64,000 nt of DNA from Microvirga lotononidis (lineage in GTDB: Bacteria; Pseudomonadota; Alphaproteobacteria; Rhizobiales; Beijerinckiaceae), in assembly GCF_034627025.1 (NCBI RefSeq), contig NZ_CP141048.1, positions 2,120,001 through 2,184,000 on the forward strand, read 5' to 3'. The stretch's first letter is position 1. Every line of letters begins with the position of its first letter. The translations under genes and the position numbers were made by a program. The notes beneath the pieces were generated by a model. The model was not told where the DNA came from and did not search any database. It saw nothing but the letters and a program-made list of their open reading frames with translations. Below are positions 37,950 through 43,071 of the stretch, one piece after another.

Positions 37950-38008
37950 TGAGGTCGGCGCTCTGTCATCCTCTTGCCCCGCATCGCCGCGCCCATTATC
38001 GCTACGCC

Positions 38009-38791
38009 ATGAGCATCCGCATCGCTTCCCTCCAGCGCTATCCGGTCAAGGGCCTGTCTCCCGAGCCACTGACCCAGGTCTCCCTCACGAAGGGCGATTA
38101 CTTTCCCGGTGACCGGCTGTTCGCCATCGAGAACGGCCCGGCCGGGTTCGACCCGGACAACCCGCAGCATCAGCCCAAGATCAAGTTCCTGATGCTGATG
38201 CGCAACGAGAGCCTGGCGCGGCTCAGGACCCGTTATCTCGATTCGATCACGACCCTTTTCATCGAGCAGGGCGGGCGCGAGGTGGCGCGGGGCGATCTCT
38301 CGACGAAGGAAGGGCGGCTCGCCATCGAGGCCTTCTTCCGCCGCTTCATGCCGAAGGAGCTGCGCGGCGCACCGAAGCTGCTGACAGCGCCGCAGGGCTT
38401 CCGCTTCACGGATTCCCGGCGCGGCTTCGTCTCGCTGATCAATCTCGCGAGCGTACGCGAGCTGGAGAAGGTGGTCGGCTCGGCCGTCGATCCGCTGCGC
38501 TTTCGCGGCAACATCCACATCGAGGGGCTCGACCCTTGGGCGGAGTTCGACCTCGTCGGCCAGGTGCTGACCACGCCCTCGGGCGCGCGCCTGAAAGTGA
38601 CCAAGCGCATCGAGCGCTGCGCCGCCACCAACGTGGATCCGCAGACCGGCCTCCGCGACCTGCAGATTCCGAAAAGCCTCATGGCGGCCTATGGCCATTT
38701 CGATTGCGGCATCTATGCCGAGGTGCTGGACGGGGGAACGCTCGAAATCGGCGAGGATCTCGAGGCGGAGCAGACGACGCTGGCGTTGTGA
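38009..38791 (+). CDS. MOSC domain-containing protein
   Basis: 260 residues. The N-terminal MOSC_N beta-barrel begins IASLQRYPVKGLSPEPLTQV and contains GDYFPGDRLFAIENG. The C-terminal MOSC domain has SVRELEKVVGSAVDPLRFRGNIHIEGLDPWAE and the molybdenum-ligand cysteine region ERCAATNVDPQTGLRD. Relatives (mARC, YcbX, YiiM) reduce N-hydroxylated compounds with a molybdenum cofactor. The ATG at 38009 is where homology to the family starts; the frame upstream lies in the family B repeat. It is transcribed away from the IS element, which lies 185 bp downstream. Confidence 0.9.
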   Translation: MSIRIASLQRYPVKGLSPEPLTQVSLTKGDYFPGDRLFAIENGPAGFDPDNPQHQPKIKFLMLMRNESLARLRTRYLDSITTLFIEQGGREVARGDLSTKEGRLAIEAFFRRFMPKELRGAPKLLTAPQGFRFTDSRRGFVSLINLASVRELEKVVGSAVDPLRFRGNIHIEGLDPWAEFDLVGQVLTTPSGARLKVTKRIERCAATNVDPQTGLRDLQIPKSLMAAYGHFDCGIYAEVLDGGTLEIGEDLEAEQTTLAL

Positions 38792-38842
38792 TCTTCGTCC
38801 TCTTCCGGGCGGAAGGGGGCGCCCGCACAGGGGCATACTCTC

Positions 38843-38938
38843 CACGTCATCACCGGCCTTGTGCCGGTGATCTGGATGGATTGAAGCGCCGAGCCTCACC
38901 GGATCGGGATGGCCGGGACAAGCCAGGCCATGACGTTG
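38843..38938. repeat. palindromic intergenic repeat, family A copy 2
   Basis: CACGTCATCACCGGCCTTGT, then GCCGGTGATC on the left, and GATCGGGATGGCCGGGACA, then GCCATGACGT on the right. The arms are less perfect than in copy 1. It lies between the MOSC gene and the left end of the transposon. Confidence 0.78.
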
Positions 38939-38975
38939 CGGATGTCCATCCCGACAGGCACCGGGACAACAAAAA

Positions 38976-39001
38976 GGCGATATTATACTTGACGTACCCA
39001 A
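38976..39001 (+). repeat. left terminal inverted repeat of the IS1595-family element
   Basis: 26 bp, beginning GGCGATATTATACTTGACG and ending TACCCAA. It contains TTGACG, which could act as a -35 hexamer for transcription into the element. The target-site copy AACAAAAA abuts its outer end. Confidence 0.95.
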
Positions 39002-39034
39002 GGAGTAGACTCCTAAGCGCGGGCATGCTTCGAT

Positions 39035-39063
39035 GCCCCTCTCAATCACCTAGAGGGAGGGGC
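39035..39063 (+). promoter_or_regulatory. stem-loop covering the ribosome site of the Cas2-like gene
   Basis: GCCCCTC (39035-39041) can pair with GAGGGGC (39057-39063), which is the ribosome-binding sequence two bases before the ATG at 39066. An alternative stem, CCCTCT (39037-39042) with AGAGGG (39052-39057), would leave it open. The two are mutually exclusive, so translation may be structure-controlled. Confidence 0.45.
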
Positions 39064-39065
39064 AA

Positions 39066-39344
39066 ATGGCACAGTACTTGATTAGCTACGATCTTCATTG
39101 GAGGCGCGACTACGAGCCGATGTGGAATTTCTTAACCAACCAGGGCGGGGTGCGCCTTCTGGAGTCGCTGTGGCTGCTTTCGTCAACGGCCACCATAGCT
39201 CAGGTTTCTCAGGTACTTACGACCTTGATAGATAATGATGACAGCTTCGCTTTAATCGAGTTGAAGCAAGGATCAGAGTGGGGCACCATGCGAGCCAAGC
39301 CGGAAGGTGCACAGTGGCTCCAGAATAATATCCGCCGCTACTAG
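39066..39344 (+). CDS. Cas2-like (SinR-family) small protein, transposon cargo
   Basis: 92 residues with the ferredoxin-like pattern of Cas2-type proteins: QYLISYDLHWRRDYEPMWNF gives the first strand (with the conserved Asp of the SYDL motif) and helix, then RLLESLWLLSS, DNDDSFALIELK and a C-terminal helix ending NNIRRY. Small stand-alone relatives are annotated as SinR-family or Cas2-like and have no proven role; Cas2 and VapD relatives can be ribonucleases or structural adaptors. There is no CRISPR array or cas gene nearby. It is the only plus-strand gene of the element, with its own ribosome site (GGGAGGGG) inside a potential stem-loop. Downstream (39345-39453) no gene is seen. Confidence 0.75.
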   Translation: MAQYLISYDLHWRRDYEPMWNFLTNQGGVRLLESLWLLSSTATIAQVSQVLTTLIDNDDSFALIELKQGSEWGTMRAKPEGAQWLQNNIRRY

Positions 39345-39453
39345 TGCCCTAGCCAATAGGACTCGCGCGCTCTGATTGGCACTCGCAACAATGCGGCCAC
39401 TGCGAATACTATACGCAGCCTCACGATTTTCATTCTCATCTCCTACCAAGGAA

Positions 39454-39480
39454 AAACCCGGCTCACTGGCCGGGTTTCTT
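39454..39480 (-). terminator. terminator of the transposon's minus-strand operon
   Basis: AAACCCGG / CCGGGTTT around CTCACTGG; on the minus strand the stem runs into TTTTTCC. The ORF71 stop codon lies inside the loop, so the gene's last codons form part of the hairpin. Confidence 0.8.
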
Positions 39481-39678
39481 AGTTTCGGGCTTATCGCCCT
39501 TCTCTCGTTTGTCTGGTCGTTTCGGCGGCACAACCTTGCCAAATGCCTTCTCAAAGGCTTCGCCCGTTTCGTCGCACCCCGCTGCTTTAGCGGCAGCAAC
39601 AAAGCGCGCCGCCTGATCCGCCTTTAGATGTTCAGGGCTGTTTGCACGGCGCGAGGTCTTTCGATCCGAAGAGGCCAT
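39463..39678 (-). CDS. small basic protein, transposon cargo, 71 aa
   Basis: 71 residues, rich in Lys and Ala: ASSDRKTSRRANSPEHLK, then ARFVAAAKAAGCDETGEAF, then a Lys/Pro-rich tail ending KKPGQ. The middle part (ARFVxxAKxxGCDExxExFExAF) is a helix-turn pattern that I recall from short unknown proteins in alphaproteobacterial accessory DNA. It overlaps the 3' end of the PIN gene by 55 bp and has no clear ribosome site, so translation may depend on the PIN gene. The operon terminator overlaps its stop. Function unknown. Confidence 0.6.
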   Translation of the reverse strand: MASSDRKTSRRANSPEHLKADQAARFVAAAKAAGCDETGEAFEKAFGKVVPPKRPDKREKGDKPETKKPGQ

Positions 39679-40145
39679 AGGTTCGCAACCATTCCGTTGA
39701 GTTCTAAAGGAGATAGATGCTTGGAGTCCATTCGCCCCGCATCTGAAGTTACCATGTAATCACAGCCAGCATGAATAGCCGTTGCGATGTGAATAGTATC
39801 TGGAACTTGGGGAGCCTTCTTTGTGATGGCTCCTGCATCTTTTTGAGCCTGATAGAAGTTCCTAATCTTGTACGCGCAGTCTCCGATGCGATCTAAGACG
39901 GGGAGAACTTGAAAGTTACTCCTCGCTTGCAGTCTTTGCCAAACAGCCCACATAGTGGGATCGTTTTTGCATTCGAGTACCTCAAGTTTAGTTATTACAG
40001 AGGTTACGCCGATAAACCTGTCGCTGCATAACTCAGATATAATGCCGCCAACATCGTGCGCATCTCCTCGGCCCTGATTGCCGGTCAGCCAATCAAGAAC
40101 AAAGCACGTATCAAGGTATATTTTTGGCTTATTCTGTCCAGCCAT
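39624..40145 (-). CDS. PIN-domain protein (VapC-like), transposon cargo
   Basis: 173 residues. The PIN active-site acids are present in order: KIYLDTCFVLDWL (first Asp), VITKLEVLEC (Glu), QVPDTIHIATAIHAGC (Asp) and CDYMVTSDAGRM (last Asp). This acidic tetrad makes it a likely metal-dependent ribonuclease, as in VapC toxins. The ATG at 40145 was chosen because the PIN strand starts five residues later. It overlaps the 3' end of the 272-aa gene by 17 bp, which takes the place a VapB antitoxin would have but is much larger than any VapB. Toxin activity is inference. Confidence 0.85.
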   Translation of the reverse strand: MAGQNKPKIYLDTCFVLDWLTGNQGRGDAHDVGGIISELCSDRFIGVTSVITKLEVLECKNDPTMWAVWQRLQARSNFQVLPVLDRIGDCAYKIRNFYQAQKDAGAITKKAPQVPDTIHIATAIHAGCDYMVTSDAGRMDSKHLSPLELNGMVANLWPLRIERPRAVQTALNI

Positions 40146-40947
40146 CGCGTATCTTCGCCAACTGCTCGAATATTTCCCTGCGAGAGTCGGCGAATACGCC
40201 CCCAAACTCCATAAGGTCTAAGCTTTCTACTTCGTCCAACACGGTTACTTCCTCAACGAATATTCGATGAGGATACCGTGCATTGGGACGGTATACGGCT
40301 TTGCCGTACACAGATGCCTTATGGGTCAACGCCCGCTTGTGCTTTTCAATCTCGTCGCGAGCGAACTCGCAAGTTATCCACTTCGGTCCAACAGCCGGAT
40401 AGAGCCGGAATGTTGGCTTGGCGGAATGAACATTGATTTCTTCGATTAGGCCCTGCCACTCTTCCGTATGAGCCTCGTTGCGGAAAGTCACCTTCTCAAA
40501 GGCGGACTTAAGCTCAATTCCTATTTCTACGGCCTGATCCAGCCAGCGTAGCTTGGTGGCGCGAACGGAATGGCCAACTGGCTTTAGGGCGCTGCGGATA
40601 CCCTCAAGGGCGGAGTTGCTCAACTCCTCCGCATCGACGCCTCTCGCAAGCTGATTGACCCCGCCAAAGAACCGCTGAAGCACGTTACTCGCAGAATTGA
40701 AGCTGGACGCTTGGTCGAGAGCAATACCGCCTAGGACCACGGTAGCATCGGAGTGATGGAGGTCCACAACCTTCCAGGTGAGGGTCTTATGAGCGTGTAG
40801 ATCCTCATCAATGGCTTCTAGGACTTGGCCAATAGCCTCAAGCTCCGCAATGAAGTCATCTAAAGACACATCTGTGCCTTCGCCGCCCAATGCTGCAACG
40901 ACGATCTCTAACTTCTGGGGCAGAGGCGTATCTAATCGCTGTTCCAT
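40129..40947 (-). CDS. 272-aa protein of unknown function, transposon cargo, upstream partner of PIN
   Basis: The first 150 residues are mostly alpha/beta with DDFIAELEAIGQVLEAIDEDL and WKVVDLHHSDATVVLGGIAL. The second half looks like a small beta-barrel: EWQGLIEEINVHSAKPTFRL, KWITCEFARDEIEKHKRAL, KASVYGKAVYRPNARYPHRI and FVEEVTVLDE. I recall proteins with this C-terminal pattern beside PIN genes in many bacteria, but they have no established name or role. It begins 8 bp after the transposase stop with AGG upstream, so it is probably made from the transposase transcript. It could be an antitoxin, a nucleic-acid-binding partner of PIN or a regulator of the element. Confidence 0.75.
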   Translation of the reverse strand: MEQRLDTPLPQKLEIVVAALGGEGTDVSLDDFIAELEAIGQVLEAIDEDLHAHKTLTWKVVDLHHSDATVVLGGIALDQASSFNSASNVLQRFFGGVNQLARGVDAEELSNSALEGIRSALKPVGHSVRATKLRWLDQAVEIGIELKSAFEKVTFRNEAHTEEWQGLIEEINVHSAKPTFRLYPAVGPKWITCEFARDEIEKHKRALTHKASVYGKAVYRPNARYPHRIFVEEVTVLDEVESLDLMEFGGVFADSRREIFEQLAKIRDGWTE

Positions 40948-40955
40948 TGGAGAAC

Positions 40956-41879
40956 CTACGCGGCCAACGAGTCCCGGTACATTAACCGTTTACCCACGAT
41001 GCCAACCAAGACCTTATCAGATCGTTCCTGATCTCCAAGGCCGAGAGCGGCGCGGTGATTATATCTAAAGTCGAACTCAGCAAGATAGCGGTGAAGGTGC
41101 TTCTCTCCGCAATGTTGGTAAACGCCCTTCATTCCCCGCTTGAATACGGAGAAATAACCCTCAATCGTGTTCGTATGAACTGTGCGATCTTCAAGGGAGA
41201 CATACTCACCCTGTCCATGACGCACGAACCGATGCTCTGCGAAGTCCTTGCTCAGATGGTAGTAGTGTCCGGCTTCGTCCGTCATGACGCTGGCCTCTTT
41301 GGCAAGGTTTTGGCGCAGGATCGGGGTAATGGTAGCGGGCTTTAGGTCGTCCACGACCATGCTTGTGGCCCTGCCCGTATTCCGCTCAACCAGCGTCAGC
41401 ACCTTCATTTTGTGATGGTACGCCCGCTTTTTGGGTGCGCCCTTCTTGCGGCCGATGAAGGTCTCATCGACTTCAACCACGCCGCCGTCAGCCCCAAAAG
41501 GGGACAGGTCGCCCTCCCTCATAGCCTCGCGGATGCGGTGAGACATGAACCAGGCCGTCTTGAGCGTCACCCCAAGGGTGCGGTGAAGCTGGTTGGAGCT
41601 GATACCCTTCTTACTGGAGCAGAGAAGGTACATGGCCTGAAGCCAGACATGCAACGGAACATGGCTGCTCTCAAAGACCGTCCCAACCTTCACCGTGAAG
41701 GGTTTACGGCACTGGTAGCACTTGTAGGCCCCGATCCGGGTGCTCTTACCGCCCATCTTGGAGATGCGCTCGAAGCCACCGCAGTGAGGGCACACTGGGC
41801 CTTCCGGCCACACCCGCGCTTCGACGAAGGCGTAAGCGGCCTCTTCATCATGGAAGTGAGGGGCGGAAAGGATGGACAC
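40956..41879 (-). CDS. IS1595-family ISXO2-like transposase
   Basis: 307 residues. The N-terminal zinc ribbon has CPHCGG and CYQCRKPF (two CxxC pairs), then the helix-turn-helix-like KKGISSNQLHRTLGVTLKTAW. The catalytic DDE-type domain has VEVDETFIGRKKG (first Asp), VMTDEAGHY (second Asp) and HTNTIEGYFSVFKRGM (Glu), as in ISXO2-like transposases. The GTG at 41879 is the likely start because GAGG lies six bases upstream; a TTG at 41891 is the longer option. The gene is intact. Three cargo genes follow in the same direction with no terminator between, so transposase and cargo share a transcript. Confidence 0.93.
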   Translation of the reverse strand: MSILSAPHFHDEEAAYAFVEARVWPEGPVCPHCGGFERISKMGGKSTRIGAYKCYQCRKPFTVKVGTVFESSHVPLHVWLQAMYLLCSSKKGISSNQLHRTLGVTLKTAWFMSHRIREAMREGDLSPFGADGGVVEVDETFIGRKKGAPKKRAYHHKMKVLTLVERNTGRATSMVVDDLKPATITPILRQNLAKEASVMTDEAGHYYHLSKDFAEHRFVRHGQGEYVSLEDRTVHTNTIEGYFSVFKRGMKGVYQHCGEKHLHRYLAEFDFRYNHRAALGLGDQERSDKVLVGIVGKRLMYRDSLAA

Positions 41880-41921
41880 GACGGACCTCAAACTGTTGAT
41901 ACGCTTAAGGTATCACGGTCT

Positions 41922-41947
41922 TTGGGTACGTCAAGTATAATATCGCC
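41922..41947 (-). repeat. right terminal inverted repeat of the IS1595-family element
   Basis: The exact complement of the left 26-bp end. The outer flank is AACAAAAA, the second copy of the target duplication. The outward-facing strand contains TATAAT, a possible -10 hexamer, but with no good -35 at proper spacing. Confidence 0.95.
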
Positions 41948-41950
41948 AAC

Positions 41951-41979
41951 AAAAAAGGGAGGGCCAAGCCCTCCCTTTT
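41951..41979. terminator. bidirectional terminator at the end of the DUF4167 operon
   Basis: GGGAGGGC and GCCCTCCC pair around CAA. The plus-strand tail is TTTT; on the minus strand the stem is followed by TTTTTTGTT. Most of that minus-strand T-run is the right target-duplication copy, so the transposon sits at the very edge of this terminator. Confidence 0.85.
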
Positions 41980-42000
41980 CGTATCGTCTGTCATGAAGCC

Positions 42001-43071
42001 TTACTCGGCCGCCGGGGTCTCGGCCGGATCGGGCGCGAAACCGGCTTTCTCGGCATTGGCCGCGTCGAGCATCTCCTGGCGGGTGCGGCGGCGACGGCGG
42101 GGGCGGGGAGCCTCCTCGTCGTTGGCCGCTTCCTGCACCACCGGAGGGGCGGGCGGAGCCTCCTCGACGGCCACCGGGGGAGCCGGGGAGCGGACGGGGT
42201 TGGTCAGGAAGGCCGGCAGGGTGCCCTGCTCGGGCGCCTCGGCTTCCTCACGACGGCGTTCGCGCTGGAAGCGCTCACGGCGCTCGGGACGCTCAGAACG
42301 CTCGCTGCGCTCGAAACGGTCGCTCCGCTCCTGGCGCTCCGGCCGGTCGCCCCGGTCGTTGCGCTCGAAACGGGCAGGGCGCTCATTGCGCTCGCCGCTG
42401 TCCTGGCGCGCCTCGTAGGGCAGCTCGTCCTGACGCTGCGAGTCCTGACGCGAATCCTGGCGCTGGTAATCCTGGCGCTGGTAATCCTGGCGCGGGCCTC
42501 GGTCGCGCTGGAAGCGCTCGCGACGGTCGCCGCGATCGTTCCGATCGCCACGATCCTGGCGGTCGTTCCGGTCCTGCCGGTCGCCGCGATCTTGGCGGTC
42601 ACCACGATCCTGCCGGTCGAAGCGGCTCGGGCGGTCGTTGCGCTCGCCGCGGGATTCGTAGGGCTGCGGCTGTGAGCCGAAATCCTGGTCGTCGCCGTTG
42701 CCGAAATCCTGACCGCCGGACCGGTCGAAGCCCTGGCGCTCACCTTGGGAGAAGCCCTCGTCCTCGCCGCCCTCCTCGTCGAAGGGCCGCTGCTGGTAGC
42801 CGTACTGCTCGCGCAGCTGCTCCTGGGCGGCGGCGATGATGCGGAAATAGTGCTCGGCGTGCTGGAAATAGTTCTCGGCCGCCACCGGGTCGCCGCTCGA
42901 TTGCGCGTCGCGGGCGAGCTGGCTGTATTTCTCGGCGATATGCTGAGCCGTGCCGCGGATCTTCACGTCCGGGCCGTTCGACTCATAGCTCTTCGTGAGG
43001 GGATTGGGCCCCTTGTTGTTGCGGTTGTTGTTGTTACGACCGCGCATCCGCCTGTTTTGTCCTGGTCTCAT
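42001..43071 (-). CDS. DUF4167 protein with long Arg/Asp/Gln repeat region
   Basis: 356 residues. The N-terminal DUF4167 domain is clear: MRPGQNRRMRGRNNNNRNNK, PLTKSYESNGPDVKIRGTAQ, HIAEKYSQLARDAQSSGDPV and ENYFQHAEHYFRIIAAAQEQ. After about residue 110 the protein becomes a low-complexity tract of RQDRGD/RNDR/RSERPER-type repeats, then a Pro/Ala-rich tail. This suggests a disordered, RNA-binding-like protein; the family has no proven function. The ATG at 43071 matches the family start and removes 18 unlikely residues. It is the last gene downstream of prmC, beyond a 360-bp gap. Confidence 0.92.
   Translation of the reverse strand: MRPGQNRRMRGRNNNNRNNKGPNPLTKSYESNGPDVKIRGTAQHIAEKYSQLARDAQSSGDPVAAENYFQHAEHYFRIIAAAQEQLREQYGYQQRPFDEEGGEDEGFSQGERQGFDRSGGQDFGNGDDQDFGSQPQPYESRGERNDRPSRFDRQDRGDRQDRGDRQDRNDRQDRGDRNDRGDRRERFQRDRGPRQDYQRQDYQRQDSRQDSQRQDELPYEARQDSGERNERPARFERNDRGDRPERQERSDRFERSERSERPERRERFQRERRREEAEAPEQGTLPAFLTNPVRSPAPPVAVEEAPPAPPVVQEAANDEEAPRPRRRRRTRQEMLDAANAEKAGFAPDPAETPAAE

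Follow-up and report, generated by a model that had tools for sequence, protein, structure and literature searches.

The window, the whole stretch of 64,000 nucleotides of Microvirga lotononidis DNA analysed here, contains a transposon whose five genes and other features are collected in Table 1. Comparison of the 311-aa transposase with family models gave 121.5 bits for the IS1595 DDE domain (PF12762, cut-off 27), 41.5 bits for its zinc ribbon (PF12760, cut-off 25.4) and 203.8 bits for NF033547 (cut-off 75), so that the PF12762 and NF033547 scores bear out the description, in an earlier note on this DNA, of an intact ISXO2-like transposase. Both the terminal inverted repeats and the 8-bp target duplication expected of the IS1595 family are present and, as in a transporter IS (tIS), one IS transposase and a set of passengers lie between two ends. 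We ruled out a casposon, the transposase being of the IS1595 DDE type. A promoter scan found no sigma-70-type site.

Table 1 Features of the transposon and its insertion site (positions in the window).
Feature	Position	Strand	Remark
Left target-site duplication, AACAAAAA	38968..38975	.	One copy in congeners
Left terminal inverted repeat, 26 bp, perfect	38976..39001	+	
Slot B cargo, Cas2-like (SinR-like) gene, 92 aa	39066..39344	+	Convergent to main operon; sub-threshold PF09827
Terminator-like hairpin between Cas2-like and small genes	39454..39477	+	Such sites in the region are not above shuffles
Conserved small accessory gene of the element, 71 aa, pI 9.8	39463..39678	-	55-nt overlap with PIN gene
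Slot A cargo 2, PIN-domain protein, 173 aa	39624..40145	-	17-nt overlap with partner gene
Slot A cargo 1, partner protein of 272 aa with an alpha/beta N-terminal half and a predicted OB fold (residues about 157-243)	40129..40947	-	
IS1595-family (ISXO2-like) transposase, 311 aa	40956..41891	-	Stop 8 nt before partner start
Right terminal inverted repeat, 26 bp, perfect	41922..41947	-	
Right target-site duplication, AACAAAAA	41948..41955	.	
Intrinsic-terminator type GC hairpin and A/T tracts, between flanking convergent genes	41956..41979	.	Insertion in A-tract

The limits of the element, which the earlier note had given to the base, were confirmed by the 26-bp ends without a mismatch (97% identity over 29-bp arms) and the 8-bp duplication, as well as by alignments with congeners, which span an empty site with one AACAAAAA and no cargo. 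This cargo-free site also speaks against a possibility raised in that note, namely that relatives carry the same genes at this locus without inverted repeats. Since the 26-bp end has just two matches in the genome when up to 3 mismatches are permitted, and thus matches nothing besides this element, the element is present as a single copy, which rules out a multi-copy element in this host genome. The element inserted into an intrinsic terminator, within its A-tract, and insertion into such an A/T tract would do little harm. Rfam gave no matches at gathering scores in 38000-43000.

To place the element among its relatives we surveyed 60 loci, of which 16 without resolved ends (15 rejected, and L095, which has no ends) were left out of the element counts. 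A homologue of the small gene is found in 23 of the 60 loci and in the window, on the transposase strand in every case, and it tracks the transposase tree. The remaining genes fall into two places that we call slot A, between the transposase and the small gene and on their strand, and slot B, past the small gene toward the far end and on the opposite, convergent strand. In three close relatives the alignment with the window is limited to the transposase, the small gene and the right end, and the contents of both slots differ. These comparisons of sequence show a fixed core, made up of the inverted repeats, the transposase and the co-directional small gene, and two exchangeable cargo places, slots A and B. 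Because its strand is constant, its tree agrees with that of the transposase and it is retained while the slots differ, the small protein behaves as a conserved element gene and not as a passenger. The earlier note had counted it among four passengers; the PIN module and the Cas2-like gene keep that status, but the small basic protein behaves as part of the element. Nor is it an antitoxin of the PIN protein, a role ruled out by its presence where the PIN profile finds nothing (for example L047, L062 and L013). The layout has exceptions: the cargo of L059 breaks the slot rule, L046, of the same clade, has no small gene, and L107 has the PIN pair and lacks the small gene.

Passenger DNA is present in 45 of 45 related elements with resolved ends, which range from about 1.8 to 4.3 kb with a single transposase, so that cargo as such is normal here, contrary to the earlier note, which called a transposon with such a combination of passengers unusual. 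By our own judgement, the cargo of 17 of the 45 is recognisably of nuclease, toxin-antitoxin (TA) or restriction type, with DUF433 and RelA/SpoT proteins counted as TA parts; it includes HEPN, NYN, PIN_10, restriction-modification and GmrSD proteins. As the other 28 have no recognised cargo of these types, a "nuclease platform" is a trend and not a rule. Because a codon-score gene caller failed on the cargo genes, we chose cargo ORFs on their length, and some of these choices may be wrong. When scanned singly, 35 of 50 cargo ORFs had no family above cut-off, the 50 having been chosen by hand from 127 of at least 100 aa with the partner and PIN ORFs excluded; control ORFs, 20 of 43, were picked by rule. 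This diversity is what would be expected if the transposon had simply picked up unrelated host genes, and unrelated cargo does occur in related elements, as the earlier note had allowed. Its further suggestion that the genes could be chance neighbours did not hold, as other elements also carry the pair of 272-aa and PIN genes and the Cas2-like gene: the order transposase-partner-PIN-small gene is repeated in the window, L008, L010, L011, L049 and L050, and the Cas2-like gene lies in slot B of the window, L013 and L048. We therefore consider a chance origin of the cargo very improbable. Since relatives keep the transposase and the small gene and swap cargo, often for nucleases, the PIN and Cas2-like genes look like repeated cargo rather than a one-off.

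In VapBC systems a PIN-domain protein is encoded behind an upstream, overlapping partner gene, and the PIN gene of slot A is arranged in the same way. Its product matches PF01850 with 31.0 bits (cut-off 23.6) and, like a VapBC toxin, has conserved acidic residues (D12, E55, D116 and D135), which are common to related PIN proteins and invariant in 7 rows; its profile matched no PDB sequence at E <= 0.01. Where VapBC would have a small antitoxin of a known DNA-binding family, the partner here is a 272-aa protein with a predicted OB fold that contains neither an antitoxin domain of a known type nor any Pfam or NCBIfam family above cut-off. Partner and PIN genes occur together in 12 of 14 loci, and the AU test on the transposase tree did not reject a single origin for the two (p 0.085). 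This linkage and the overlap of the upstream partner gene with the PIN gene suggest an alternative in which the two form a toxin-antitoxin pair that serves retention of the transposon alone, the Cas2-like gene being incidental. Passages of a study of Tn3-family transposons describe a precedent, TA pairs with PIN, PIN_3 and HEPN toxins inside the transposition module (Lima-Mendez et al. 2020, PMC7157771), and nuclease-type toxins in such a module are the likeness to the present element. Unlike the Tn3 elements of those passages, which have tnpA/tnpR and known antitoxin families near res sites, this one combines an IS1595 transposase with a partner that has no VapB-like domain, and its cargo sits behind the transposase and in a convergent second slot. 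Moreover, the restriction-modification and GmrSD cargo of related elements points beyond addiction, and the Cas2-like gene recurs in slot B. We regard the addiction reading as a real possibility that falls somewhat short of even odds.

The predicted structure of the partner contains an OB barrel in its C-terminal half that is closest to SSB, PriB and tRNA-synthetase OB domains; the N-terminal half, modelled alone from three sequences, reached a pLDDT of 36, and we claim no fold for it. In Foldseek searches the best solved structure reached E 1.8e-3, so that none passed E <= 0.001, and BFVD held three phage proteins alike over most of the length (E 7.6e-10 to 9.6e-8), with a TM-score of only 0.40-0.46. 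No partner relatives were found in IMG/VR (tblastn) or, by single sequence, in plasmids; profiles linked the partner to Roseomonas and Methylobacterium plasmid proteins. The modelled OB fold and its phage resemblances, together with the restriction and nuclease cargo of sister elements, would fit a transposon-borne two-gene defence, with a partner that detects foreign single-stranded RNA or DNA and guides cleavage by the PIN protein. However, an OB fold, being common, identifies no target, and PADLOC matched the five element proteins to weak Cas2 models only (E 0.017 and 0.019), an absence that does not exclude defence. We therefore think a dedicated anti-invader system rather unlikely.

The Cas2-like protein scores 16.5 bits against PF09827, under the gathering cut-off of 23.8, and PF09827 is found in 6 of the 22 proteins retrieved with it as query. 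As a single protein it matched no PDB sequence at E <= 1; a 17-row profile reaches the solved Cas2 structure 7mi4_E (E 0.0053) and also 3exc_X (E 0.0017). A part in CRISPR adaptation is made improbable by this sub-threshold score and by the lack of a Cas1 among the five element proteins, which also set the protein apart from Cas2 itself; its likeness to Cas2, VapD and SinR-like proteins is a weak Cas2-superfamily similarity. Judged on sequence, it is probably a second RNase-type cargo. Passages of a survey of HEPN proteins mention, as unpublished observations, that the toxin RNases of integron cassettes include Cas2-like proteins (PMC3710099). Three of the 44 other elements carry the gene, and 411 kb of flanking DNA contains no copy; the three in-element places in our class scan are rows of the model, and the independent recurrence comes from a model built without them. 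At 15 of the 18 Cas2-like places in the class sample (E <= 1e-8), neither an IS1595 transposase nor the small gene lies within 1.5 kb, and a transposase is missing from the 5 kb around three of eight partner places, so that neither the Cas2-like nor the partner gene is confined to these elements.

Taken together, these findings favour, with a probability of about two in three, a modular IS1595-family transporter transposon in which a fixed core carries two exchangeable slots with nuclease-type cargo that aids persistence. The function of the cargo is plausibly toxin-antitoxin-like or directed against invaders. The slot A genes appear to overlap as one operon with the transposase, and this would couple the PIN gene to that operon; the PIN protein is most likely an RNase toxin that the OB partner restrains or directs. 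In common with the HEPN, NYN, PIN_10 and restriction cargo of related elements, the pair would help the element or its host to persist when attacked by other mobile DNA. The overlap of cargo genes in one operon with the transposase, and the co-inheritance of the small gene with it, might instead mean that the PIN, partner, small and Cas2-like proteins act on the element itself, regulating its transposition or mRNA. Yet the cargo is swapped while the core persists, so it is unneeded for transposition as such, and partner-PIN pairs occur without a transposase within 5 kb (L108, L109 and L111); such self-regulation seems to us unlikely.

Transporter IS elements of the IS1595 family are already in print (PMC8496243, PMC3129680, PMC5704250). 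The modular element resembles tIS such as tISCpe8 and MTnSag1 (Siguier et al. 2009) in combining an IS1595 transposase with passenger genes. In the tIS passages of the three papers (PMC8496243, PMC3129680, PMC5704250) the passengers confer lincomycin resistance or are unnamed, and neither a conserved small gene with two slots nor nuclease-rich cargo appears in those passages; the layout looks to be the new part. Tn7-like transposons, whose cargo is described in passages of Benler et al. (2021, PMC8649781) as enriched in TA modules and anti-MGE defence, differ in their Tn7-type transposition genes from these small elements with a single transposase.

More tentatively, and at less than even odds, the alphaproteobacterial IS1595 clade could be a standing two-slot carrier of nuclease-based TA or defence genes, in which the small gene marks the slot boundary and helps to keep or exchange cargo, the OB partner and PIN protein form an undescribed two-gene nuclease system, and terminators, an idea derived from the window itself, are favoured as targets. 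If this is right, distant bacteria exchange genes for toxin-antitoxin, nuclease and restriction functions on very small transposons of 2-4 kb. Such elements are usually annotated as a lone IS1595 transposase next to "hypothetical proteins"; their exact ends make the cargo readable and therefore offer a route to new nuclease systems. Our guess is that the small protein assists in transposition or in its control. In the class scan 17 small-gene places lie beside a strong transposase, all of them rows of the small-gene model itself. Among six other places with strong matches (E <= 2e-10), outside the model rows, three have no transposase nearby (L144, L145 and L148) and three lie by a transposase or a remnant of one (L143, L146 and L147).

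The IS1595-family (ISXO2-like) element of the window lies exactly where the earlier note had placed it, with terminal arms that match at 97%, an outer 26 bp free of mismatches, and the target-site duplication AACAAAAA on both flanks. Its transposase scored above both the Pfam and the NCBIfam cut-offs, which upholds the family assignment. A search allowing up to 3 mismatches found no further copies of the element ends in the genome. The element has a GC content of 53.6% vs 65.1% for the window, and its convergent gene ends (Cas2-like gene and small gene) are separated by a terminator-like hairpin.

To survey related elements we used a threshold of E <= 1e-60 and found strong transposase relatives at 54 places, including the window, in 40 of 385 genomes of the class; the other 53 places gave 52 loci, which with eight loci from named records made 60 (L-numbers). 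Ends counted as resolved when 17 or more of 24 bases matched and 6 or more of 8 bases were duplicated; 44 loci passed, and the window brings the set to 45 elements, which range in length from 1833 to 4306 bp (median 2509). Because every one exceeds a transposase gene by at least ~0.8 kb, all 45 contain passenger DNA. Passengers are therefore the rule in this group, in agreement with the known concept of IS1595 'transporter IS' as presented in PMC8496243, PMC3129680 and PMC5704250. One further relative, L147, has an internal deletion and a perfect 8-bp duplication, and is apparently a non-autonomous derivative.

Aligned pairwise with the window, L012 (whose ends lack a matching duplication), L013 and L051 share three blocks only, which match at 80-83% (transposase), 79-89% (small gene) and 80-96% (right end). 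DNA between transposase and small gene (slot A) and beyond the small gene (slot B) differs from the window in all three. From these alignments we take the elements to consist of a core that stays fixed and two slots whose cargo can be exchanged. Among 16 resolved small-gene elements that we tabulated, slot B is present in 14 (absent in L011 and L049). In 13 of these the longest ORF of slot B runs opposite to the transposase, and L048, the remaining one, has its Cas2-like gene on the opposite strand as well. L059 fits poorly, having an opposite-strand DUF3800 gene between transposase and small gene. IS1595 elements with passengers are already known; for the two-slot layout, we found no description in the titles and abstract openings searched, most subscription papers lying outside the search. 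Within the literature searched, one paper combined IS1595 and PIN domain, a Haemophilus parasuis genome comparison.

Homologues of the 71-aa small protein, sought by motif and then by profile, were found in 23 of the 60 loci in addition to the window, on the transposase strand in 24/24. In some elements, L047, L062 and L063 among them, the small gene follows the transposase immediately; in others it comes after slot A cargo, as in the window. In a 51-row tree of transposases, the window belongs to an 18-row clade (support 97/98) in which 17 rows have the small gene, and this label requires 4 changes vs 15.9 when shuffled (0 of 500 shuffles as low). The small proteins are short (median 50 aa) and mostly basic (median pI 9.45), but 7/24 are acidic, so that basic character is no family trait. 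Near the six strongest small-gene places outside the model rows in the 385 genomes, an IS1595 transposase or remnant is present in three and absent in three. The small gene probably helps transposition. In L049 its domain opens a longer ORF, the C-terminal extension of which may hint at its role.

The Cas2-like protein is weakly similar to Cas2, and one homologue carries the name SinR. VapD is a Cas2-like RNase. With a profile built without the element members that it found, three of the 44 elements besides the window proved to have the gene: L013 and L048 in slot B, and L078, which has no small gene, on the transposase strand. There were no matches in 411,430 bp of sequence flanking resolved elements. 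Of 18 places in the class sample (E <= 1e-8), 15 lie more than 1.5 kb from any IS1595 transposase or small gene; the gene is thus also a stand-alone one. A HEPN survey names Cas2-like proteins, in a passage citing unpublished observations, among toxin RNases in integron cassettes (PMC3710099). The window protein would be a second RNase-type cargo. The L013 element occurs at >=99% identity in 30 Pseudosulfitobacter plasmid records.

The PIN protein retains D12, E55, D116 and D135, and its partner, whose gene overlaps the PIN gene in an operon-like arrangement, is modelled with an OB fold; the PIN protein is probably an RNase under control of the partner, and the pair would serve persistence or defence. 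The PIN cluster comprises six elements. On the transposase tree the PIN pair shows no clustering (5 changes vs 5.8 shuffled; 100 of 500 shuffles as low), though a single clade is not rejected (AU p 0.085).

Counting Pfam matches, the PIN cluster and relatives of the HEPN protein (L047, L063, L070), 17 of the 45 elements carry nuclease, toxin-antitoxin (TA) or restriction cargo. We scanned 50 of 127 candidate cargo ORFs one by one: 15 scored above the cut-off of a Pfam family, and in 12 of the 15 the family was of nuclease, TA or restriction type. Of 20 flank ORFs, 15 had a family at E <= 1e-5 and two belonged to these types, one being an Eco57I-like methylase and the other an ArdC-like protein. 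The difference (Fisher p 0.0007) is between sets filtered differently, with kinds sorted by our own judgement. Eight BLAST-linked cargo ORFs form one cluster across L060, L066, L067, L078, L082, L084, L086 and L088; the three scanned singly (L060, L066, L067) matched no Pfam family at its cut-off, and the cluster may be a cargo family that recurs or may in part be an artefact of antisense ORFs.

Features of the window element and of related elements (cargo families: Pfam above cut-off, each protein alone)
Locus	Coordinates	Strand	Feature
Window	38840-38937		~95-bp dispersed repeat directly left of element; many copies in genome and other genomes of genus
Window	38976-39004		Left arm
Window	41919-41947		Right arm
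Window		minus	Transposase, then 8-nt gap
Window		minus	272-aa partner, 17-nt overlap with next
Window		minus	PIN gene, 55-nt overlap with next
Window		minus	Small gene, 71 aa
Window		plus	Cas2-like gene, 92 aa, convergent
L013	3932-5800		Little beyond transposase, small gene, Cas2-like gene
L048			DUF433 and PIN_10
L049	4330-4785		Small-gene domain, then longer C-terminal extension, one ORF
L050			N6 methylase with Mrr
L059			DUF3800
L062			HEPN
L069			NYN
L070			Nested transposase
L071			DUF1828
L073			GmrSD with HNH
L075	3933-6989		GmrSD (N-terminal domain) gene adjoining HEPN gene; looks like a pair
L084			RelA/SpoT
L096	4217-7015		Cytosine methylase and GIY-YIG; restriction-modification type; adjoining gene overlaps transposase by few bases
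L097	5871-8971		N6 methylase with HNH; restriction-modification type; adjoining gene overlaps transposase by few bases
L147	4364-5405		1042-bp relative; one ORF matching transposase and PIN profiles, small gene after

At the insertion site we compared 11 congener loci (L176-L186). The flanks form one continuous alignment over the junction in L176, L178, L179 and L186, a long aligned piece also covers it in L177, and in L180-L182 the flanks lie near each other without an insert of the element's size; ~1.3 kb separates them in L183, and the right flank was not found in L184 and L185. Since the inspected alignments of L176 and L178 show a single AACAAAAA with a GC hairpin directly after it, the element inserted at a site that is empty in these congeners, in the A-tract of a terminator-type hairpin that separates two convergent genes. 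The idea of such targets came from the window itself and was then tested on other sites. In 4/16 small-gene elements (window, L048, L070, L077) the 8-bp duplication falls within a T- or A-tract next to a strong hairpin, compared with 31 of 1164 flank positions matched for AT content (p 0.0009; window excluded, 3/15, p 0.008). Two of the remaining 30 sites are of this type: L046, which lies close to the window on the transposase tree, and L107, a PIN pair carrier. Over all 46 sites six qualify (p 0.002; window excluded, 5/45, p 0.009), which is suggestive of, but does not firmly establish, a preference for terminator-type targets.
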